A stretch of 64,000 nt of DNA from Cyanosarcina radialis HA8281-LM2 (GTDB lineage: Bacteria > Cyanobacteriota > Cyanobacteriia > Cyanobacteriales > CCAP-1448). Numbering within the stretch: the stretch's first letter is position 1; each line of letters begins with the position of its first letter. The stretch is taken from contig JAHHHA010000003.1 in the NCBI GenBank assembly GCA_019359615.1, positions 124,001-188,000 of the forward strand, in the 5' to 3' direction. The position numbers and the translations under genes are program-made. The notes below the pieces were generated by a model. The model saw nothing but the letters and a program-made list of their open reading frames with translations. It searched no databases and was not told where the DNA came from. Positions 48,214 through 64,000 of the stretch are shown here, one piece after another.

Positions 48214-48675
48214 ATGTCCGCCAATAGGATTAAGATCGCTAAAGATAAAGCAGAGCTAGTAAAAGGCTTAACAGTATCAAATGGCACAACTGGGCCTTTT
48301 CGTACCTACGTAGAGGTAATTGTATTTGCCGCAGCTTTAGGTGTTAAGTGGAATAAGCGAGTGCCTATAGAAGAAGTTTCAAAGAAAGATCCCGATCCGA
48401 TTCCACGAGAGCATTTTGTGAATAATGGGTATGAGCCGATAATCAACTTGATTGGGATTAATGAAACTCAAGATAAAAATATCATGTCTTTTGAAGAGAG
48501 AGGTGAAGAATGTAATAAAATTTTTGAAGAGTATGCTAATGGAGGTCTAGAAATATTGCGTGAGGAATTACGCGGATCGGTAGATTATACCAATCAAATT
48601 TTATTATTAATGTTAAAAATAAAAGATAAAGATATTAGTCCAGAAACTGAGTTCGACCTGAGTAAATTTTTATGA
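48214..48675 (+). CDS. DNA phosphorothioation-associated protein 4-like
   Basis: 153 residues. It resembles the small Dnd-associated protein (Dpt4/DNA phosphorothioation-associated protein 4): RIKIAKDKAELVKGLT, TYVEVIVFAAALGVKW, FEERGEECNKIFEEYANGGL and a C-terminal YTNQILLLMLKIKDK. The role is unknown. It overlaps the next gene by 4 bp (ATGA), and both are visibly more AT-rich than the flanks. The context with dndC, dndD and dndE supports the name. Confidence 0.8.
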   Translation: MSANRIKIAKDKAELVKGLTVSNGTTGPFRTYVEVIVFAAALGVKWNKRVPIEEVSKKDPDPIPREHFVNNGYEPIINLIGINETQDKNIMSFEERGEECNKIFEEYANGGLEILREELRGSVDYTNQILLLMLKIKDKDISPETEFDLSKFL

Positions 48676-49616
48676 ATAATTTGCAATGTTATTTAAAACA
48701 GTTCTCAGATTTAAAAGTTAGCAACCATCGAGAGCGAGGGCAGGCTCATTATAAGCCAATACTACTTTTATCTGTAATTGAACTCATATCACAAGGATTT
48801 ATTAAAGAAAATCGTATTACTGTTTCAGACGAACTAATTGAAGTTTTTGATAAATATTGGAGAATATTTGGTAATGAGGCTTATAAAGGTGGCTTGACAT
48901 ATCCATTTTTGCATATGCAAAATGAGGGCTTTTGGCACTTAAAGTTTCAAGATAATTTTAAGGGACTACAACCTAAGACTATAAATAAACTTAAACAAGC
49001 TGCCGAGTACGCCTACTTAAATACCGATCTGTTCGAGTTACTACAAGATCGAGCTTTAAGAACTGAGTTAGTTGATAATTTATTAGTCTCTTGGGTTTCA
49101 TCCAAAAAAGATAGCATTGGAGAGCTTTTAAAAGCGAACGAAGATTTTCAAGATTACTCTGAAACAGAAGCAGAATCGTTAAACAAATTACCAAACATAG
49201 AAAAATATCCAAAAATAATATTCAAGAAATCGATTGTTAGAGATGCTTTATTTCGTAAATCCATAATTTACTTTTATGATTATAGATGTGCCTTTTGTAG
49301 GCTCAAGGTTGTTAATTCACTGAATCAAAATATTGTTGACGGCGCACACATAAAACCATTAGCAAAGTTTTATGACAGCCAGATAAATAATGGAATATCT
49401 CTATGTAAAAATCATCATTGGGCATTCGATCGAGGTTGGTTCAGCATAGACAACAGTTACAAAATTATCATCTCTGATAGTTTTCAAGAAGATTCACCAA
49501 ATTCAAATCCTATGAATGAATTTGATGGTAAAATGATATGTCTGCCGTCTGAAGAAAAGTATTTTCCTGCCATAGAAGCTCTAACCTGGCATCGCCAAAA
49601 TATTTTTATTGGCTAG
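48672..49616 (+). CDS. HNH endonuclease with sulfur-binding-domain-like N terminus
   Basis: 314 residues. The N terminus (about 1-130) has RGQAHYKPILLLSVIELISQ and ELIEVFDKYWRIF, like the sulfur-binding domain (SBD) of ScoMcrA-type nucleases that recognise phosphorothioated DNA. The C terminus has an HNH site: Cys pair C206/C209, H226 (VDGAHIKPLAK), N240, C245/H248/H249 (CKNHHWAFDRGWF). It overlaps Dpt4 and precedes dndC by 52 bp, so it is probably cotranscribed. In this family it cuts modified DNA; how the host avoids self-cutting is the question. The SBD call is by pattern; HNH is certain. Confidence 0.83.
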   Translation: MNNLQCYLKQFSDLKVSNHRERGQAHYKPILLLSVIELISQGFIKENRITVSDELIEVFDKYWRIFGNEAYKGGLTYPFLHMQNEGFWHLKFQDNFKGLQPKTINKLKQAAEYAYLNTDLFELLQDRALRTELVDNLLVSWVSSKKDSIGELLKANEDFQDYSETEAESLNKLPNIEKYPKIIFKKSIVRDALFRKSIIYFYDYRCAFCRLKVVNSLNQNIVDGAHIKPLAKFYDSQINNGISLCKNHHWAFDRGWFSIDNSYKIIISDSFQEDSPNSNPMNEFDGKMICLPSEEKYFPAIEALTWHRQNIFIG

Positions 49617-49668: not shown

Positions 49669-51252
49669 ATGGTAGAAACTAATGTAGAACCATTAAAAAA
49701 ACGTACAGTAGCAGAGTTAGTAGAAAATATTAAAAAGCTAACCATAGAAATTCAAGAATTATACTGTCTAGACGATATTCCGTGGGTTGTAGGTGCATCT
49801 TTAGGTAAAGACAGCACGACAGTTTTACAGCTAATATGGAATGCTATTGCCTCTCTCTCTCCAGAAAAGCGCACCAAGACAATTTATGTAATTACCACAG
49901 ATACTTTAGTAGAAAATCCTATAGTTTCTAGTTGGGTACGACAATCGCTAGAGCAAATGAAAAATGCGGCTTCGGCGCAAGAGCTACCCATAGAACCTCA
50001 TCTTCTTTACCCAAACATCAAAGACACATTCTGGGTAAATATCATTGGCAAAGGCTACCCCGCACCTCGGCATAGATTTCGCTGGTGCACCGAACGGTTG
50101 AAAATCCATCCATCCAATCACTTCGTTCGCGATGTTGTAAGAGCAAAAGGAGAAGTAATTTTAGTGTTGGGTACGCGCAAAGCTGAAAGTAGCAAACGGG
50201 CTGCTTCGATGGAAAAACACGAAATAGGTCGAGTTAGCGATCGCCTCAACTCTAATTCTAGCTTAGGTAACTCTCGACTTTATCATAGTCCCAGCCTTCC
50301 TAACTCGATGATTTACAGCCCCATTGAAGACTGGAAAACTGATGAGATTTGGCTTTATCTCATGCAATGGGAGAATCCTTGGGGGCAAAGCAACAAAGAT
50401 TTATTTACTATGTATCGAGGTGCTACAGACGATAACGAATGCCCCTTAGTTGTCGATACTTCTACTCCTAGTTGTGGTAGTTCTCGATTTGGATGTTGGG
50501 TTTGTACGATGGTCAATCGCGATCGATCTATGGAGGCAATGATCCAAAATGATGAAGAAAAAGAATGGATGCAGCCTTTACTGGATATCCGTAATGAATT
50601 AGATGTTGAAGATGATTACGAGCGTAGAGATTTTCGACGGCTCAATGGTAAAGTTCAACTATTTGAACGGAATGTAGATAACCAAATTTCTGTTGTCCCC
50701 ATTCCCGGCCCTTATACTAAAGAATGGCGAGAACATTGGTTAAGGCGAGTTTTAAATGCACAAACCTTAATTCGTCAAACTGCTCCAGAACGAGTACGCG
50801 ACATCACCCTAATTACCCCAGAAGAACTGAGTGAAATTAGGCGAATTTGGCTCGAAGAAAAACACGAATTTGACGATAGTTTGCCTCGTATCTATAAAGA
50901 AATTACAGGTGAAATTTTCCGCGATTTACGTCCCGGTGCCGATCTTAGCTTACTAGGTAGCGACGAGTGGACTGTACTCGAAGAAATCTGCGATGACGAT
51001 GCCATGCACCTAGAATTGATGGCAAAACTTTTAGATACCGAACGCCAGTATCGCACGATGGCACGTCGCGTGGGGATTTATGACGAATTAGAAAAATGCT
51101 TCGCCACCAGTTCTCGTTCTCAACAAGAAGCGATCGAAAATGCCCACTACAAACGCGACTTAAAAACAGCCGTTAGCGAGGGGGACGTAGAAGCAGTTAA
51201 ACAACTAACTTGGGCAAATCTGAAATTCCCAAACAGCAATTCTAGCGATTAG
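49669..51252 (+). CDS. dndC: DNA phosphorothioation system sulfurtransferase DndC
   Basis: 527 residues. DndC is an Fe-S protein with ATP pyrophosphatase activity that passes sulfur to the DNA backbone. The P-loop-like GASLGKDSTTV is at residues 42-52; the PAPS-reductase fold continues. The block RHRFRWCTERLKIHP and the cluster DTSTPSCGSSRFGCWVC give the 4Fe-4S cysteines. The C-terminal half (RDITLITPEELSEIRRIW, then GAD-SLLG) matches DndC length. Ends tail-to-tail with the antitoxin gene (4-bp overlap). Confidence 0.97.
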   Translation: MVETNVEPLKKRTVAELVENIKKLTIEIQELYCLDDIPWVVGASLGKDSTTVLQLIWNAIASLSPEKRTKTIYVITTDTLVENPIVSSWVRQSLEQMKNAASAQELPIEPHLLYPNIKDTFWVNIIGKGYPAPRHRFRWCTERLKIHPSNHFVRDVVRAKGEVILVLGTRKAESSKRAASMEKHEIGRVSDRLNSNSSLGNSRLYHSPSLPNSMIYSPIEDWKTDEIWLYLMQWENPWGQSNKDLFTMYRGATDDNECPLVVDTSTPSCGSSRFGCWVCTMVNRDRSMEAMIQNDEEKEWMQPLLDIRNELDVEDDYERRDFRRLNGKVQLFERNVDNQISVVPIPGPYTKEWREHWLRRVLNAQTLIRQTAPERVRDITLITPEELSEIRRIWLEEKHEFDDSLPRIYKEITGEIFRDLRPGADLSLLGSDEWTVLEEICDDDAMHLELMAKLLDTERQYRTMARRVGIYDELEKCFATSSRSQQEAIENAHYKRDLKTAVSEGDVEAVKQLTWANLKFPNSNSSD

Positions 51253-51671
51253 ATAAAGAGGCTAGGATCGACATGGAAAAATTTACCTAAAACCTCAGCC
51301 TGCCCTCGATCGATCTCTCTGCGATCGTCGATAATTTCAGCAGCAACACTACTAGAACCCAGTATTTGTATTATATCGGATGGCTGTAAACTCCGTGCTT
51401 CCATTAAATGAAGAAGCATAGCATGAGAGTTAGATTTAGGTATTGGGTATTGCTCGCCTTCATATTTTTCTATAAGAGCGAGCAATAATTCAAATAAAGT
51501 TGTTTCTTCCAAAGTTCGATTCGGTCGCTTGCGTGCGCGGAGCGCGTATCGATGAGCTAATTCTTCAACTATGGCGATAGCTTCTTCGTTTTCTTCATCA
51601 GTTTTAATCGCCTTGGGTTGATATTTAGCTAATAAATTGGCATAAATTTCAGAACTAAAACTAAGGGTCAT
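51249..51671 (-). CDS. HigA-type antitoxin / transcriptional regulator
   Basis: 140 residues from the ATG at 51671. The family pattern is TDEENEEAIAIVEELAHR followed by TLFELLLALIEKYEGEQYPIP and a C-terminal HTH (LMEARSLQPSDIIQILGSSSVAAEIIDDRREIDRGQAEVLGKFFHV). It lies antisense between dndC and dndD, so it splits the operon. No HigB toxin is next to it; the upstream 195 bp have only CTTTGCG-type repeats. It could repress the dnd genes or be an orphan antitoxin. Confidence 0.85.
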   Translation of the reverse strand: MTLSFSSEIYANLLAKYQPKAIKTDEENEEAIAIVEELAHRYALRARKRPNRTLEETTLFELLLALIEKYEGEQYPIPKSNSHAMLLHLMEARSLQPSDIIQILGSSSVAAEIIDDRREIDRGQAEVLGKFFHVDPSLFI

Positions 51672-51866
51672 TTTTCCAATTATCCTTTTAGAACATCTCA
51701 AATTTAGAGTACAATATCACGTATCAATAGCAATCCTACAAAACCTTGATTCTCCAAAGGAGACGCTCCACGAACGCTAGATGCCTCACAACTTAAAAAT
51801 CCTCTGCGAACCTTTGCGCTTTCCTTTGCGTACCTCTGCGTTAAAAAAACACCAGGAGACAACTGC

Positions 51867-53855
51867 GTGATCTTCCTAGAACTGGTGCTGCAAAACTTTG
51901 GTTCTTATTGCGGGCGACAAGTCATCAATCTCCGTCCAGAAATCGATAACAATCCTCGTCCAATCATCTTAATTGGTGGCATGAATGGTGGCGGGAAAAC
52001 CACTTTAATGGATGCCATTCGTCTATCACTTTACGGACATCGGGCCCAATGTTCTAACAGGGGAAATTTAAGTTATAGCGATTTTCTCAATCAGTCAGTT
52101 AATAAATATGCAAAACCAGAAGAAGAGACTGGCATCGAACTCTTGTTTGAACACATCCTCAATAACGTACCTGTAGAATTCCGTATCAAAAGAACTTGGA
52201 AAAAAAATCCCCGCAATGGCAAAGACACTTTAGGGGTTTTAGTAGATGATTGGCCCGATGCAGCCTTAGCCAAAACTTGGGACGAACGGATTGAAGACTT
52301 ACTACCTTTAGGCATCTCGAATCTGTTTCTTTTTGATGGCGAACAGGTTAAAGAACTAGCCGAAATGGAAACAACTCCTTCTCTAGTAGTAGAAGCAATT
52401 GAATCGCTTTTAGGTTTAGAACTAGCCGAACGTCTCGCTGTCGATTTAGACATTCTCGTCAATCGCAAACGGAAAGCGATCGCTGAGACTAAAGATCTCG
52501 CTACCTTAGAGGAAATCGAACAAAAGCTGAATTTCCAAAAACAAGAATACGATTCAGCCAAACAAGCATTAGCATCAATTCAAAACCAGTTAGATAAAGC
52601 ACACGAAGAACACAGTTCCGCCTCAGAAAAATTTCTTTCAGAAGGGGGCAAAATTGCCGGAGAACGCAGCCAGCTAGAAAAACAATTGCATGACTTGGGT
52701 GCAGATACCGAAGAAGTTCGCAACAAATTGAGAGAAGTAGCGGGCGAGATTTTACCTTTAGCTTTAATTTCCCCGTTGTTAAACTCGGCAAAAATCCAAG
52801 CAGATAAAGAACATCATGCATCTCAAGCCAAAATCGCCCATGATGTTTTACAAGAGCGATCGCAGCGCTTATTAAACTACATTAGCGAACTAGGCTTAGC
52901 CGCCAAACAAATTAACAAAATCAAAGATTTTATCGAGCTAGAAGAACGAGAACTACAGCAAGAAATATCTAGTAATGAAGCTGCTTGGTTAAATGCCGAT
53001 CGAGAAACTAGTAATTTGTTAGCTAATATAAGCGATCGCAATTTACCAAATCAAATCCAAATAGCTGAAGAAAAACTTAAAACTCTCAAAAATATCGAAG
53101 CCGAAATTACATCCACAGAGAGACAGCTAGCCGTTGCTGCCTCACCAGAAGCCTACGAAAAGTTAACCAATGCAGTTAGAGAGGCACAAGCCGAACTAGT
53201 AGCAGCACAGACAGCTTATGATGCCAAGAAGAAACTAAGTGAGGACTTGTGGGATGCGATCGAAAAAACCAAAAAGAGATTAGGCGAGTACAGCCAAGAA
53301 AACATCGATCGTAAAAATGACGAACACATCATCAATGCGGCAGCAAAAGTACAATCCACGCTCAAAGTCTTTCGCGAAAAATTGACCCTTCGCAAACTCA
53401 ACCAGTTAGAGTCAGTAGTCACAGAATGCTTCTTATATTTACTGCACAAATCAGATTTAGTACATCGAGTAGCGATCGATAGCAAAACCTTCAGCCTTTC
53501 TCTCTACGATCTGCAAGGACAATTAGTCCCCAAACATCGACTATCTGCTGGAGAAAAACAACTGCTAGCGATCGCATTTTTATGGGGATTAGCGCGAGTA
53601 TCTGGACGGAAATTGCCAATAGCGATCGATACACCTTTAGGAAGATTAGATTCATCTCACCGCAGTAACTTAGTAGAACGATATTTTCCCGCTGCCAGCC
53701 ATCAAGTAATCCTGTTATCAACCGATACGGAAATTGGAGAATTAGAAGTTAAAAAGCTCAGAGAACAAGAAGCGATCGCTCGCGAGTATTTGCTAAAGTA
53801 TGACTCTTCTGCTCGTCAGACTGTGGTAGAAGGGGGTTATTTTTGGGAAGCATGA
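51867..53855 (+). CDS. dndD: DNA phosphorothioation system ATPase DndD
   Basis: 662 residues from a GTG with CAGGAGAC upstream. DndD is an SMC/Rad50-like ATPase thought to change DNA structure for sulfur insertion. Walker A GGMNGGGKTT is at residues 37-46; a long coiled coil follows; the signature LSAGEKQLLAIAFLWGL and Walker B LPIAIDTPLGRLDSSHR are at the C-terminal end. Downstream of dndC, with an antisense antitoxin between, and 41 bp before dndE. Confidence 0.97.
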   Translation: MIFLELVLQNFGSYCGRQVINLRPEIDNNPRPIILIGGMNGGGKTTLMDAIRLSLYGHRAQCSNRGNLSYSDFLNQSVNKYAKPEEETGIELLFEHILNNVPVEFRIKRTWKKNPRNGKDTLGVLVDDWPDAALAKTWDERIEDLLPLGISNLFLFDGEQVKELAEMETTPSLVVEAIESLLGLELAERLAVDLDILVNRKRKAIAETKDLATLEEIEQKLNFQKQEYDSAKQALASIQNQLDKAHEEHSSASEKFLSEGGKIAGERSQLEKQLHDLGADTEEVRNKLREVAGEILPLALISPLLNSAKIQADKEHHASQAKIAHDVLQERSQRLLNYISELGLAAKQINKIKDFIELEERELQQEISSNEAAWLNADRETSNLLANISDRNLPNQIQIAEEKLKTLKNIEAEITSTERQLAVAASPEAYEKLTNAVREAQAELVAAQTAYDAKKKLSEDLWDAIEKTKKRLGEYSQENIDRKNDEHIINAAAKVQSTLKVFREKLTLRKLNQLESVVTECFLYLLHKSDLVHRVAIDSKTFSLSLYDLQGQLVPKHRLSAGEKQLLAIAFLWGLARVSGRKLPIAIDTPLGRLDSSHRSNLVERYFPAASHQVILLSTDTEIGELEVKKLREQEAIAREYLLKYDSSARQTVVEGGYFWEA

Positions 53856-53896
53856 AGTTAGATGAGTTTTTTTAACCACAAATAAAACAAAAAGCT

Positions 53897-54298
53897 ATGG
53901 AACCACCCATTAACACCATCCGGCTTTCCCAATCAGCCAAAGACCAACTCACCAAACTCAAACGCCTCACCAAAATCGATCGCTGGAACGTCCTTTGTCG
54001 CTGGGCATTTTGTCGATCCCTAGCCGAACCATCCATTCCCTCACCCGTCCCCATTCCCGCCGATAGCAACGTCGAAATGACCTGGCCCGTCTTTGGCGGA
54101 GAAATTGCCGATATTTTACTCATAGCCCTAAAACAACGCTGCCACAACGACGGTTTGGGCACAGACAAAGAAACCATAGCCACACAATTCCGCCTGCACC
54201 TGCATCGCGGTATCGGATACTTAGCAGGCGACCCCAATATTAAGAAAATTGAAGACCTGATTGAAATTGGCTTGCCATCTAGAAAAAATATGGATTAG
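53897..54298 (+). CDS. dndE: DNA phosphorothioation protein DndE
   Basis: 133 residues. DndE forms tetramers that bind nicked DNA in the modification complex. The start NTIRLSQSAKDQLTKLKRLTKIDRWNVLCRWAFCRSL is diagnostic for DndE. The middle holds WPVFGGEIADILLIALKQRC, and the end LHRGIGYLAGDPNIKKIEDLI matches the family. It lies between dndD and the methyltransferase. Confidence 0.96.
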   Translation: MEPPINTIRLSQSAKDQLTKLKRLTKIDRWNVLCRWAFCRSLAEPSIPSPVPIPADSNVEMTWPVFGGEIADILLIALKQRCHNDGLGTDKETIATQFRLHLHRGIGYLAGDPNIKKIEDLIEIGLPSRKNMD

Positions 54299-54320
54299 AC
54301 ATTCCACCTCAAAGGCAGCT

Positions 54321-55856
54321 ATGGACGACTCTTCTCCCAATCGAGAAATCGAACGTCACCGGGCTGCGATGATTCGTAGCGATCTGTCTTTGCCAGTACG
54401 TCTAGCCCTAGAAACAGGACTCTTCACCCCAGATACTACCTTCTTCGACTACGGTTGCGGTCGCGGCGGCGATGTGGAACGCATAGTTCAGCAAGGATAT
54501 AGCGCCGCTGGGTGGGACCCCTATTACCGCCCCGATAGCCCTCTTACCCCAGCCGACATCGTTAACCTGGGCTATATCATTAACGTCATCGAACACCCTC
54601 CCGAACGTCGAGAAGCCTTACTAAAAGCCTGGGAACTAGCGGGGCAAGTTTTAATCGTTTCTGCCCAAGTTTTAATTAGCCAGCGGGGTTCCGGGCAAGT
54701 TGCCTACGGCGATGGCATTATTACCTGTCGCAATACCTTTCAAAAATACTACGACCAACAAGAACTTAAAAGCTACATCGACCAGGTTTTAAACGTCGAT
54801 GCGATTCCCGTAGGATTGGGCATTTACTTTATCTTTCGCGACGAACAAGCTAAAGAAAACTTTCGGGCTTCTTATTTTTATTCTCGTACCACCACGCCCA
54901 GAATTCGAGTTAACTCTAAGAAATTTGAAGACTATCAAGAACTGCTAACACCGCTAATGGATTTTGTCGCCAAACGCGGCCGACTGCCGATAAAAAGAGA
55001 GGTAAGTTTCGAGCGAGCAATTCAGGAAGAATTTATCAATTTTAAGCGAGCATTTCAGGTAATTTTACAAGTTACAGACCGAGATGAGTGGGAAGCGATC
55101 GCCCAAAAACGCCGCGAAGATATTATCGTCTACTTAGCTTTGAGCTATTTCCGCTCCGGTCCGCAATTTAAAAAACAGACGACAGCAGTGCAAAACGATA
55201 TCAAATCTCTTTTCGGCACCTTACGTCTAGCTGATGAAATCGCTAAATCGATGCTCTTGGACTTAAAAGAACCCAGAGCGATCGCTAAGTGTTGTCAAAA
55301 AAGTAAGATTGGTAAAATATTACCTACAGCGCTCTACGTCCATATTTCCGCTTTAGAAAAACTCGACCCTTTATTAAGGATTTATGAAGGTTGTGCCAGC
55401 AGTACGATCGGCCGTCCTAAAAATACGACGCTGATCAAGTTACATACCAACAAACCGCAAATCTCCTATCTTTATTACCCCGAATTTGATAGCGATCCTC
55501 ATCCGAGTTTATCTACTAGCGTTAGGGTAGAATTGCAAGATTTACAAGTTGACTACCGCGACTATCGATCGTCAATCAACCCACCTATTTTGCACCGCAA
55601 GGAAACTTTTATCGCCCCAGATTATCCCCAATACGAAAAATTTGCCAAACTCACCAAGCAAGAAGAAGATTGGGGATTGTTAGACGATATTCACACTATT
55701 GGCACTCGTAAAGGTTGGCAAAAATGTTTAGAAGATAACTGTGCCGAAATTAAAAATTATCGAGTTTACTGGCGCAAAGATGCCGATCCATATCGGATCA
55801 AACTCTTAAAGTCTGCTCGTCGCCAGCGGGACAGGGAAGAGGGGGAGCATTCTTAA
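54321..55856 (+). CDS. DNA phosphorothioation-associated putative methyltransferase
   Basis: 511 residues from the ATG at 54321; a TTG at 54261 would overlap dndE. The N-terminal part has a SAM-binding loop FFDYGCGRGGDVERI (residues 41-55), then GYIINVIEHPPERREAL. The large C-terminal region is family-specific (RKDADPYRIKLLKSARRQRDRE at the end). It belongs to the Dnd-associated methyltransferase family found in many cyanobacterial dnd clusters; the substrate is unknown. Last gene of the island on this strand. Confidence 0.9.
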   Translation: MDDSSPNREIERHRAAMIRSDLSLPVRLALETGLFTPDTTFFDYGCGRGGDVERIVQQGYSAAGWDPYYRPDSPLTPADIVNLGYIINVIEHPPERREALLKAWELAGQVLIVSAQVLISQRGSGQVAYGDGIITCRNTFQKYYDQQELKSYIDQVLNVDAIPVGLGIYFIFRDEQAKENFRASYFYSRTTTPRIRVNSKKFEDYQELLTPLMDFVAKRGRLPIKREVSFERAIQEEFINFKRAFQVILQVTDRDEWEAIAQKRREDIIVYLALSYFRSGPQFKKQTTAVQNDIKSLFGTLRLADEIAKSMLLDLKEPRAIAKCCQKSKIGKILPTALYVHISALEKLDPLLRIYEGCASSTIGRPKNTTLIKLHTNKPQISYLYYPEFDSDPHPSLSTSVRVELQDLQVDYRDYRSSINPPILHRKETFIAPDYPQYEKFAKLTKQEEDWGLLDDIHTIGTRKGWQKCLEDNCAEIKNYRVYWRKDADPYRIKLLKSARRQRDREEGEHS

Positions 55857-61550: not shown

Positions 61551-62708
61551 TTATAGAAGTTGATGAATTTGATTTACGGCATCGACGAGCAGAGAAGAAG
61601 CTATTTGGATTTCTGCTTGGGTGGTAAATTTACCAATACCAATTCTTAAAGCTCCTTCGATTAAATTTTCTGCCAGATTCATAGCCTGTAAAACGTGAGA
61701 TGGAGCCACAACTCCCGACGAACAAGCTGCACCTGTAGAAATAGCTAATTGGTGGCGAAGTCTAGCAATTATGGCACTATTAGGAACGTCAGGGATAGAA
61801 ATATGTAAGTTTCCTGCTAAGCGGTTGTTTGAGTCTCCATTTACTACTAAGTCGGGAATTGCAGCTTGCAGCAAGTTTTGCAATCGATTGCGCAAAATTG
61901 CGATCGCATCTTCATCTGCTGTCATTTCCAATTGTCTCAATTTACAAGCTTCTCCTAAACCCACAATTCCGGGAACGTTGAGCGTACCCGATCTAATTCC
62001 CCGTTGATGTCCGCCGCCATAAATTATAGGTTCCAGATCGCAATCTTTTTTTACTACTAATACCCCAATTCCCTTGGGTGCATAAAGTTTATGACCTGAA
62101 ATAGCTAGATAGGTAATCCCCCAATCTTGAAAGTCGATGGGAATTTTACCGACTGCTTGCGAAGCATCGCACAAAAAAGGGATATGGTATTGTTGGGCCA
62201 TCGCTCCAATTTGTTCGATGGGGTAAGCTGTCCCCACTTCGTTGTTAGCAGCCATGACGCAGAGCAAGGAAGCACCTTCCGAACATACCTTTTCCAGATG
62301 TTCTAGATCGATTTGAGCCTGTTGGTTTACTCGCAACCAGGTAATTTCGGCCAGTCCTTTTTTAGCTAAAGCTTTACAAGTATCTAAAACCGCTTTGTGT
62401 TCCACTGGGGAAACAATTATTCTGGCGGGTTTATCCAGTTTAGCGATTTGCCCTTGAATTGCCAGATTAATACTTTCTGTGGCTCCCGACGTAAAAATGA
62501 TTTCCTTGGGAGAAGCGCCGATTAATTCAGCTACTTGTTGGCAAGCTCGTTTGACCGCTTGGGCTGCTTCGTCTCCATACACATGGTCTACACTACTAGC
62601 ATTACCAAAATCAGAGGTCATATAGGACATGACTTTTTCTGCTACTCTAGGGTCAACGGGAGTAGTTGAATGGTAATCGAGGTAAATAATATCTTTTGAT
62701 GCAGCCAT
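61551..62708 (-). CDS. Cysteine desulfurase (DndA/IscS-like)
   Basis: 385 residues, class V PLP enzyme that takes sulfur from cysteine as a persulfide. The PLP lysine is K207 (ISGHKLYAPKG) and the persulfide cysteine C329 (STGAACSSG). The N-terminal YLDYHSTTPVDPRV and FGNASSVDHVYG are typical of DndA/IscS enzymes. It follows a PLD-nuclease gene by 6 bp on the same strand. No DndA is encoded within the Dnd island, so this enzyme is the nearest candidate sulfur donor; it may instead be a general desulfurase. Confidence 0.92.
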   Translation of the reverse strand: MAASKDIIYLDYHSTTPVDPRVAEKVMSYMTSDFGNASSVDHVYGDEAAQAVKRACQQVAELIGASPKEIIFTSGATESINLAIQGQIAKLDKPARIIVSPVEHKAVLDTCKALAKKGLAEITWLRVNQQAQIDLEHLEKVCSEGASLLCVMAANNEVGTAYPIEQIGAMAQQYHIPFLCDASQAVGKIPIDFQDWGITYLAISGHKLYAPKGIGVLVVKKDCDLEPIIYGGGHQRGIRSGTLNVPGIVGLGEACKLRQLEMTADEDAIAILRNRLQNLLQAAIPDLVVNGDSNNRLAGNLHISIPDVPNSAIIARLRHQLAISTGAACSSGVVAPSHVLQAMNLAENLIEGALRIGIGKFTTQAEIQIASSLLVDAVNQIHQLL

Positions 62709-62714
62709 TCTTTG

Positions 62715-63635
62715 TTATTGAATTCGGTAAAATACTTCGGAATAGTTAGGAACAGATAAAGCATAGCGATAAGGTAGAAAATAAAGCAACCACCTCATTA
62801 AGGTTTGCCACGATCGCTCTGGATCGAAATTAGGAGTTTGAGCGCAGAGTAAAGATGAGATAATATCTCTGACAGCACCGAATCTTTGAGGTATTTTCAC
62901 AAAGTTATCTATTTCTTGAATTATCGATTTTTGTAAAAGTAGAATGCCAACATAACGATTAAAGTCATGTCGATCTAAATTAGGAGCGACTTGCAAAAAC
63001 TGTAAGTCGTAGAGCGCATTTTTGCGGGCTATAGCTGTAAGTTTATCTTCTCGTCCAATATAAACAATATAAAGTTCTTCTGGATTTCTTAAAATTGGTA
63101 GCCAATTTTCATTGTCTAAAGACGCAGTAGTTATTAATTGCTGACGATCGAGAGGAATATTTTGATTTTCTAGTTGGTTAACTAGTTTGACATATTGTTC
63201 GTGTAATTGAGAATCGACTTGAATACATTTTTTCTCTAATTCTTGCTCGAATTCCAGCAATGATGAATAATTAGCTGGTAGTTCGACTAAAAGTTCTAGG
63301 TTCGATCGATTTGACCATCCTAAAGCTTTATCTGTTAAATTTGCCGAACCGACTAAACAGCGATCGTCCGATCGATAATATTTGGCGTGTAAGTCATTTC
63401 TCAACCATAAAGAAGCTTGAGGATGAGATTGAATTATCGACCACACTTCTAAATCGCTGACTCCTATTAAAATTTCTTCTATTAACCAGCGAGTAACGCA
63501 TTTAATCGAGATATGGGGTTCGATCGATGTCAGAATTTCTTTTAAGGCAGCAGCTTTAATAAAAGGTGCAACGATGACGATTTCTGTTCGAGCAGAATGA
63601 CATAACTGTTTGAGTTTATTACCTAATAAATCCAT
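62715..63635 (-). CDS. Phospholipase-D-superfamily nuclease-like protein
   Basis: 306 residues, no signal peptide. A single HxKxxxxD motif is present (H83, K85, D90 in LHAKYYRSDDRCLVGSANLTDKAL), followed by a GSAN/LT tail. One motif per chain suggests a dimeric enzyme, as in BfiI-like restriction nucleases and Nuc. The C-terminal about 190 residues are helical, and I see no known DNA-recognition domain by pattern. The desulfurase gene starts 6 bp after its stop, so the two are almost surely cotranscribed. This pairing supports a link to DNA modification or defence, as inference. Confidence 0.85.
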   Translation of the reverse strand: MDLLGNKLKQLCHSARTEIVIVAPFIKAAALKEILTSIEPHISIKCVTRWLIEEILIGVSDLEVWSIIQSHPQASLWLRNDLHAKYYRSDDRCLVGSANLTDKALGWSNRSNLELLVELPANYSSLLEFEQELEKKCIQVDSQLHEQYVKLVNQLENQNIPLDRQQLITTASLDNENWLPILRNPEELYIVYIGREDKLTAIARKNALYDLQFLQVAPNLDRHDFNRYVGILLLQKSIIQEIDNFVKIPQRFGAVRDIISSLLCAQTPNFDPERSWQTLMRWLLYFLPYRYALSVPNYSEVFYRIQ

Positions 63636-63793: not shown

Positions 63794-63852
63794 CCGCAGC
63801 TATATAATCAAAGTCCGCCTACGCGGACTAAAGAATAAACGGGATTTTAAAA
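63794..63852. repeat. GCGGCTACAT-type dispersed repeat, copy 2
   Basis: Direct-orientation relative of 61331-61388; shares AAGTCCGCCTnCGCGGACTA and CGGGATTTTAAAA. Confidence 0.8.
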
Positions 63853-63863
63853 TCCCGAATCCA

Positions 63864-63924
63864 GCCCTCACCCCCGTCCCCTCTCCCAAGCTTGGGAGAG
63901 GGGTGCCGGAGGCGGGGTGAGGGC
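63864..63924. repeat. GC-rich inverted repeat, copy 2
   Basis: A 61-bp palindrome with the same arms as 13404-13460; only the loop (CAAGCTTG) differs. Confidence 0.9.
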
Positions 63925-64000
63925 AAACCAGCTTTTGCTAAGCGGATTTCGTATTGCATCCAAAATTTGAATTTTTCCTAGAGTTTTACTCATTTTCTAA

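Follow-up and report, generated by a model that had tools for sequence, protein, structure and literature searches.

A desulfurase–PLD gene pair of Cyanosarcina radialis as the probable 3' end of an Ssp-type phosphorothioation restriction-modification cluster

Introduction

The Ssp proteins place phosphorothioate (PT) in DNA. According to published work, SspA and SspD start the sulfur pathway, while SspB nicks and is required for single-stranded PT; among the restriction partners, SspFGH attacks PT-lacking DNA and SspE needs PT to act (PMC8092258; PMC7188994). A 2025 review lists DndFGH (with SspFGH), SspE and PbeABCD as the PT restriction branches so far proposed (PMC12707154), and DndI has been added as a Dnd restriction branch (PMC11662687). 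Dnd and Ssp systems can function in one cell (PMC10470545). For 2,211 of 2,678 sspBCD clusters neither SspE nor SspFGH was found, further restriction partners being one suggested reason (PMC8092258, 2021). Here we describe a gene pair encoding a cysteine desulfurase and a protein of the PLD family from Cyanosarcina radialis HA8281-LM2. It lies in a stretch of 64,000 nucleotides (“the window”), bases 124001-188000 of the 320,701-base contig JAHHHA010000003.1 in a 6.5 Mb genome.

A first-pass annotation of the window had noted that the pair stands about 6 kb from a Dnd island and had proposed a split system, in which the island would write sulfur and the pair would supply sulfur and possibly restriction. 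We find that the pair belongs with a different set of PT genes, most of which lie just past the window's right edge.

Results

The pair ends an Ssp-type gene cluster

The PLD and desulfurase genes alone are whole inside the window; of the neighbouring cluster gene, that of a GHKL ATPase, only 15 bp fall within its edge. With the pair, the minus-strand cluster that continues past the edge measures 15,192 bases (~15.2 kb) and reads, 5' to 3' and on one strand, SspB–SspC–[Uma2]–SspD–[227 amino acids (aa)]–[DGQHR/DndB-like]–SF2 helicase–GHKL ATPase–PLD–desulfurase, so that the pair forms its 3' end (Table 1; G and L numbers are our labels for genomes and loci). The whole writer set is present: SspB (DUF4007), the SspC ATPase and the SspD PP-loop enzyme. 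Cluster genes overlap or are separated by at most 199 bp, with the sole exception of 350 bp ahead of the PLD gene; the four genes ahead of this gap overlap by 16 to 32 bases (starts having been placed mechanically). The desulfurase gene begins 6 bases after the stop of the single-HKD PLD gene, as the first-pass annotation had read it, and both open reading frames (ORFs) were confirmed in place.

We judge it likely, with a probability of roughly 0.8, that this pair closes a complete Ssp-type cluster for restriction-modification by DNA phosphorothioation, in which SspABCD would mark self DNA and the helicase, GHKL ATPase and PLD protein (“the trio”) would restrict. The basis in our data is gene content, conservation, the lineage of the desulfurase, intact catalytic motifs and the statistical coupling of the trio to sspB; the sulfur chemistry is taken from published Ssp work. 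The idea of a split system thus stands in part, the pair being placed in a cluster of the PT restriction-modification type, and in part lacks support, namely for the pair as the sulfur and restriction half of that Dnd island.

The desulfurase is assigned as SspA

The desulfurase is a class-V aminotransferase-fold enzyme with the motifs SGHK (residues 204-207) and TGAACS (325-330), which we take to be the PLP (pyridoxal phosphate) lysine motif and the catalytic cysteine motif of a desulfurase. Published SspA has Lys201 and Cys314 as the residues concerned (PMC7188994). Since it is encoded with a full sspBCD set just beyond the window, we assign it by gene context as the SspA of the adjoining Ssp cluster.

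The first-pass annotation had instead suggested that it is the DndA of the Dnd island, with the PLD protein as the restriction enzyme of that island. The two do share a neighbourhood, and the island is indeed without a desulfurase, none of the five desulfurase-like places in the whole genome lying inside it; in another genome (G255) dndCDE lie ~2.5 kb from the same desulfurase, and PADLOC gives the window enzyme 479 bits as DndA. We nevertheless consider this reading very improbable; gene context, co-occurrence, tree and model score all led us to reject it. The desulfurase adjoins a complete Ssp cluster, and the NCBIfam DndA model (TIGR03235) gives it 361 bits, under the cut-off of 480, whereas the genome's own IscS-type enzyme reaches 440.

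Phylogenetic analysis was by a quick tree of 67 rows, calculated with no bootstrap after removal of four rows from genomes already represented and of two cyanobacterial ones that were short or empty, and with long branches that include the proteobacterial Ssp rows L047 and L146. The window enzyme falls in a clade with a support of 100 (SH-aLRT, Shimodaira–Hasegawa-like approximate likelihood ratio test) made up of cyanobacterial enzymes mostly from SspB-positive genomes and of a single long-branched Sinorhizobium enzyme that is Ssp-linked. The window enzyme is apart from the genome's own IscS type, from E. coli and Legionella IscS, from a cyanobacterial NifS and from two haloarchaeal Dnd-linked enzymes, which fall with the IscS rows (SH-aLRT 89). 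Assignment as a housekeeping-type IscS was rejected as well, the genome's own IscS-type enzyme being 45% identical and placed elsewhere in the tree. The Ssp-linked desulfurases of Actinomycetota and of most Pseudomonadota are on separate branches, suggesting that the name “SspA” stands here more for a role in a gene cluster than for a single clade.

Co-occurrence of the pair with sspB and dndD

The distribution of the genes was counted in 388 cyanobacterial genomes, taking the desulfurase at E ≤ 1e-140, the GHKL ATPase at E ≤ 1e-60 and DndD over its cut-off. The PLD gene was found in 10 genomes, SspB in 71, DndD in 84 and the desulfurase in 64. In every one of the 10 PLD genomes sspB is present, as against 71 of 388 overall (Fisher 2.4e-8), and all 10 have the desulfurase; six have DndD and four have no DndD over the cut-off. 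The desulfurase is present in 53 of 71 sspB-positive and in 11 of 317 sspB-negative genomes, and where it occurs with sspB the two are on one contig in 43 of the 53 genomes and within 30 kb in 40. The desulfurase therefore goes with sspB whether or not the PLD gene is present.

Its relationship to the Dnd genes is different. Sixty of the 84 DndD genomes are without this desulfurase. The two share a contig in 14 genomes and lie within 10 kb in just two of these, the window's own and G255. There is an overall association between desulfurase and DndD (24/64, p 0.0014), which vanishes once sspB is considered: 23/53 vs 5/18 within the SspB-positive genomes (p 0.28) and 1/11 vs 55/306 within the SspB-negative ones (p 0.70). 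The first-pass annotation had itself named, as evidence that would speak against its proposal, a pair conserved in cyanobacteria without dnd genes and a desulfurase grouping with housekeeping IscS; the four PLD genomes without DndD agree with the former, and the latter was not found.

A single desulfurase might also serve both writers, the SspA of the Ssp cluster feeding the adjacent DndC in addition. This would be compatible with the Ssp assignment, and the desulfurase and Dnd genes are physically close in the window's genome (G000) and in G255. IscS can stand in for DndA in Dnd systems (PMC11662687), which means that DndC accepts other donors. Shared supply is nonetheless unlikely in our estimation: with sspB taken into account, the desulfurase shows no statistical tie to dndD; the DndA model is better matched by the IscS-type enzyme of the genome itself; and SspA of V. 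cyclitrophicus was replaced by neither the chromosomal IscS nor a DndA (PMC7188994), so that exchange of donors is not free, at least in this direction.

The PLD protein is a predicted nuclease

A single HKD motif is present in the PLD protein, HAKYYRSD (residues 83-90), followed by GSAN at 96. PF00614 is matched just over its cut-off (22.7 bits vs 21.9) and PLDc_2 just under (23.9 vs 27). In an alignment of 86 rows, which includes the window protein and has some genomes twice, H83, K85, N99 and E114 are kept in all 86 and D90 in 72. An AlphaFold2 model built from 36 rows reached a pLDDT (predicted local distance difference test score) of 93. With Foldseek and VIA-align 2, its top match was the PLD domain of SauUSI (Z 16.9, 141 residues, root-mean-square deviation 2.0), the title of whose structure names an ATP-dependent restriction endonuclease, and next by Z came NucT, Nuc, FAM83 domains and BfiI (Z 14.1); NgoAVII R gave Z 12.1. 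The likeness to restriction-type PLD nucleases that the first-pass annotation had pointed out is borne out by the model. The matches lie mainly within residues 1-153, and the protein is predicted to have a PLD-superfamily fold with an intact HKD motif and to act as a nuclease, although a shared fold is no proof of function.

Narrower assignments were tried and rejected: the BfiI/NgoFVII family (PF09565, 13.2 bits, under the cut-off of 23.8) and DISARM DrmC (NF038319, 25 bits vs a cut-off of 133). A sequence search of the PDB with the PLD alignment gave no convincing match, the best having E 0.3.

Conservation of the pair and of the trio

Among the window's genome and 99 others of its family and order, the PLD gene was found in eight. 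All seven relatives have the desulfurase downstream on the same strand (57-69% identical), at spacings by alignment ends of 2 to ~1,520 bp, at most 75 bp in five of them and 0.8 and 1.5 kb in two; one of the seven PLD genes has in-frame stops. The adjacency of the two genes exceeds chance.

For a broader view, one genome per species was scanned in 84,980 species with two short motifs, and the best 80 of 81 relatives were used. Their neighbourhoods were read with family profiles that started from the window's cluster, with an 80-bit floor, and that were built from matches in the same loci later counted. Helicase, GHKL ATPase and PLD protein all occur in 73 of the 80 loci and the desulfurase in 59; near the trio at least one of SspB, SspC and SspD is found in 72, at least two in 67 and all three in 48. 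The loci span several phyla and gene orders. In Streptomyces the trio is divergent from desulfurase–SspB–SspC, in several Pseudomonadota it converges on SspD–SspC–SspB, and in a metagenome-assembled genome (L042 8258-10945) the GHKL and PLD domains share a single open frame of 896 aa. Plasmid A of Trichormus variabilis ATCC 29413 carries an annotated twin cluster in the same order except for the Uma2 gene: DUF4007, an SspC-size protein, PAPS reductase, two small proteins, “DndB”, helicase, ATP-binding protein, phospholipase D family protein and desulfurase. The DUF4007 gene is divergent from that of a TIGR04096-type methyltransferase. Our family profiles agree with this annotation.

An alternative is that SspABCD and the trio are independent defence systems in a shared island, the trio being of MORC/paraMORC type and not reading PT. 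Operons with a GHKL ATPase (MORC/paraMORC), an SF2 helicase and a nuclease have been described as restriction systems, often with DNA methylases and with HKD among the nucleases (Iyer 2008, PMC2292703); a putative methyltransferase, TIGR04096, is near some trio loci (14 of 80). Set against this is a complete coupling to sspB within the genomes sampled: the PLD gene occurs with it in 10 of 10 genomes, and the GHKL ATPase in 12 of 71 SspB-positive genomes vs none of 71 chosen SspB-negative ones (controls in label order from G102 to G185, by label number part of the 388 genomes, from those not listed SspB-positive). The trio also stays near SspB/C/D across several phyla and gene orders. We hold independence to be improbable.

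Two further loci concern the desulfurase and writer genes. On pSYSM of Synechocystis PCC 6803 there are a DUF4007 gene and a desulfurase of the same lineage, and the family profiles found no trio member in the 37-kb stretch covered; the sspC-like gene there (L143 11083-14682) encodes only ~563 aa, with a LAGLIDADG endonuclease gene coming after it on the opposite strand, as if interrupted. On a Thermomicrobium roseum plasmid (L151 3364-8140) a desulfurase comes directly after BREX PglZ and BrxL genes, which fits the desulfurase of Type-4 BREX (PMC12839542).

Observations that weigh against the Ssp assignment

Several observations count against reading the pair and trio as parts of one Ssp restriction-modification system. 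The Fisher tests treat related genomes as independent, and the loci, having been found with two short motifs, lean to close relatives. In 11 of the 64 genomes with the desulfurase sspB was not matched, and 61 of the 71 sspB-positive genomes have no PLD gene. Two cyanobacteria (G035, G219) keep the GHKL gene with no PLD match, and thus the nuclease can be missing, although no other desulfurases come as close to the window's as theirs (81 and 80%). In their loci (L158, L159) the GHKL gene adjoins or is near the desulfurase, the helicase frame being 540 aa in G035 and only 176 aa in G219. No SspB, SspC or SspD was found in eight of the 80 trio loci; six of these end early on at least one side, while L042 and the doubtful L104 do not. 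The Ssp-like genes of two Anaerolineae loci (L030, L034) score low and might be BREX-like. The PADLOC models do not separate SspA from DndA for the window's desulfurase (476 vs 479 bits), IscS can replace SspA in some Ssp systems (PMC8092258), and the pair may have its own promoter in the 350-bp gap.

About one third of that gap is a dispersed genome repeat. At least 64 matches to it are listed for the window's genome, 40 out of 485 candidates having been scored; the majority of the long matches end near query positions 203-315, and a palindrome lies at 63878-63903.

Other genes of the cluster and the neighbouring Dnd island

The 783-aa DGQHR protein matches PF14072 (DndB) with 1.8e-6 and 27.7 bits, under the cut-off of 29.1, and a protein like it is also found in five of the 80 trio loci, including the distant L083 and L095. 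The 227-aa protein is without a Pfam or PADLOC match; GIY-YIG-like motifs were noted by eye.

The Dnd island is real, with DndC, DndD, DndE and the TIGR04096 methyltransferase all over their NCBIfam cut-offs, and it ends 5.7 kb from the desulfurase, on the opposite strand and with other genes between. Between dndC and dndD there is a 150-aa minus-strand ORF (51249-51701; PADLOC PD-Lambda-2_B, 1.3e-12) that appears antitoxin-like as read from its sequence, and directly upstream of dndC lies an HNH_2 endonuclease gene (48672-49616), possibly a Dnd-associated nuclease. A search for TIGR03238, a restriction family associated with Dnd, gave no match in any of the control genomes either. The TIGR04096 methyltransferase follows dndE in the window and stands beside sspB in the Ssp clusters L145, L153-L155 and L157; it thus goes with both PT systems.

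Table 1. Features of the Ssp-type cluster and the neighbouring Dnd island, with positions in the window unless given otherwise
Feature	Position	Strand	Match or remark
Cysteine desulfurase, 385 aa, last cluster gene; SspA by context	61551-62708	minus	Aminotran_5 261 bits
Single-HKD PLD-family protein, 306 aa, predicted nuclease, third trio gene	62715-63635	minus	PF00614
Dispersed genome repeat	63842-63954	none	~113 bp, ~1/3 of 350-bp GHKL–PLD gap
GHKL ATPase gene, last 15 bases	63986-64000	minus	continues beyond window, contig 187986-189842 (L022 1987-3843)
GHKL ATPase, 618 aa	mostly beyond window	minus	HATPase_c_3 72.7 bits; motifs ELMDN, DNGCG
SF2 helicase, 557 aa	beyond window	minus	Pfam ResIII/Helicase_C
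DGQHR/DndB-like 783-aa and 227-aa proteins between SspD and helicase	L022 5455-8474	minus	
SspD, 266 aa	beyond window	minus	PADLOC 382 bits; Pfam supports
Uma2-family gene between SspC and SspD	beyond window	minus	
SspC, 1188 aa	beyond window	minus	PADLOC 1589 bits
SspB/DUF4007, 305 aa	beyond window	minus	PADLOC SspB 418 bits; DUF4007 345 bits
Dnd island, separate from the pair's cluster	49669-55856	plus	NCBIfam matches over cut-offs
dndC	49669-51252	plus	NCBIfam over cut-off
dndD	51867-53855	plus	NCBIfam over cut-off
dndE	53897-54298	plus	NCBIfam over cut-off
TIGR04096 methyltransferase	54261-55856	plus	NCBIfam over cut-off

Discussion

Comparison with described systems

The closest described arrangement is SspABCD-SspFGH of V. 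anguillarum FF-93, where likewise an sspBCD writer stands beside a three-gene restriction module and the desulfurase may be IscS or SspA (PMC8092258). The modules differ: SspF as published contains a Walker A motif, and the end of SspH is FtsK/SpoIIIE-like (PMC8092258), whereas the parts here are an SF2 helicase, a GHKL ATPase and a single-HKD PLD protein. An assignment of the trio as SspFGH was rejected, Pfam giving ResIII/helicase, HATPase and PLD and no FtsK. SspABCD-SspE has a like writer (sspBCD and a desulfurase) but restricts through a DUF262-DUF1524 protein (PMC12707154). There was no match to PF07510 (GmrSD_C) in the window's genome, while the same search matched six of nine other genomes; we take this family to be DUF1524.

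In the PbeABCD/CxC-ATPase systems an HKD endonuclease is likewise coupled to an SF2 helicase, a subset of the systems being beside PT genes (PMC10853773), and the cluster's helicase scores 88 bits on a PbeA model. PbeA, however, is one fused protein and is accompanied by a CxC ABC-ATPase and a DndE-like partner in a Dnd-linked setting (PMC10853773), whereas the PLD protein here is separate, the ATPase is of GHKL type and the linkage is to Ssp. SauUSI, BfiI and NgoAVII R share the PLD fold; the protein described here is separate and has its own C-terminal half. Type-4 BREX resembles the cluster in DUF4007, an SspC-like ATPase, PAPS reductase, often a desulfurase, and a PT-type modification, but differs in having PglZ in all and BrxL in 96% of its type-4 taxa (PMC12839542); neither was among the eight scanned cluster proteins beyond the window, nor in the pair. 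This 2026 survey places DUF4007, SspC and SspD in Type-4 BREX, and the trio does not appear in the parts of it covered here (PMC12839542).

The MORC/paraMORC systems are alike in having a GHKL ATPase beside an SF2 helicase and a nuclease, and differ in being described with DNA methylases (PMC2292703). The ATPase domain of our GHKL protein shows both the N-box and the DxGxG motif. The main text of that paper, figures apart, gives no link to phosphorothioation under the terms sulfur, phosphorothio- and desulfurase; its figure legends name Anabaena variabilis and Nitrococcus mobilis, and the Figure 2 legend lists HKD genes, so that the parts of the trio may already be drawn there (PMC2292703). 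No tie between a helicase–GHKL–PLD trio and Ssp was found in open-access titles and abstract openings among the matches listed, and we came across no description there of an Ssp system with such a putative restriction module.

A proposed mechanism

In the proposed mechanism, SspA would remove sulfur from cysteine and hand it to SspD, and SspB, SspC and SspD would set PT in one strand at a short motif, marking self DNA. The helicase and the MutL/MORC-like GHKL ATPase would then scan DNA for absence of the sulfur mark, and unmarked DNA would license the HKD nuclease to cut by way of a histidine adduct, probably as a dimer. Position and parts point to the trio as the effector, and we infer that it restricts. 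By analogy the mark would protect from the trio rather than trigger it: an ATP-driven helicase and a GHKL ATPase with an HKD nuclease resemble restriction of unmarked DNA, which favours protection.

We would go somewhat further, if with little more than even confidence, and propose that the trio is an unrecognised Ssp restriction module of Cyanobacteria, Actinomycetota, Pseudomonadota, Chloroflexota and others, and the missing effector for part of the orphan sspBCD clusters. The nuclease could itself read PT, since the HKD histidine attacks the kind of phosphate that bears the sulfur mark, and sulfur would then block the attack.

For the organism, the assignment of the desulfurase is corrected, in that it is not part of the Dnd island, and C. 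radialis has a genome with Dnd and Ssp writers ~6 kb apart. For Ssp systems, the trio, conserved and linked with sspBCD across several phyla, offers a concrete candidate for the restriction partner of orphan clusters, and the annotated copy in a collection strain, T. variabilis ATCC 29413, makes the partner question directly testable.

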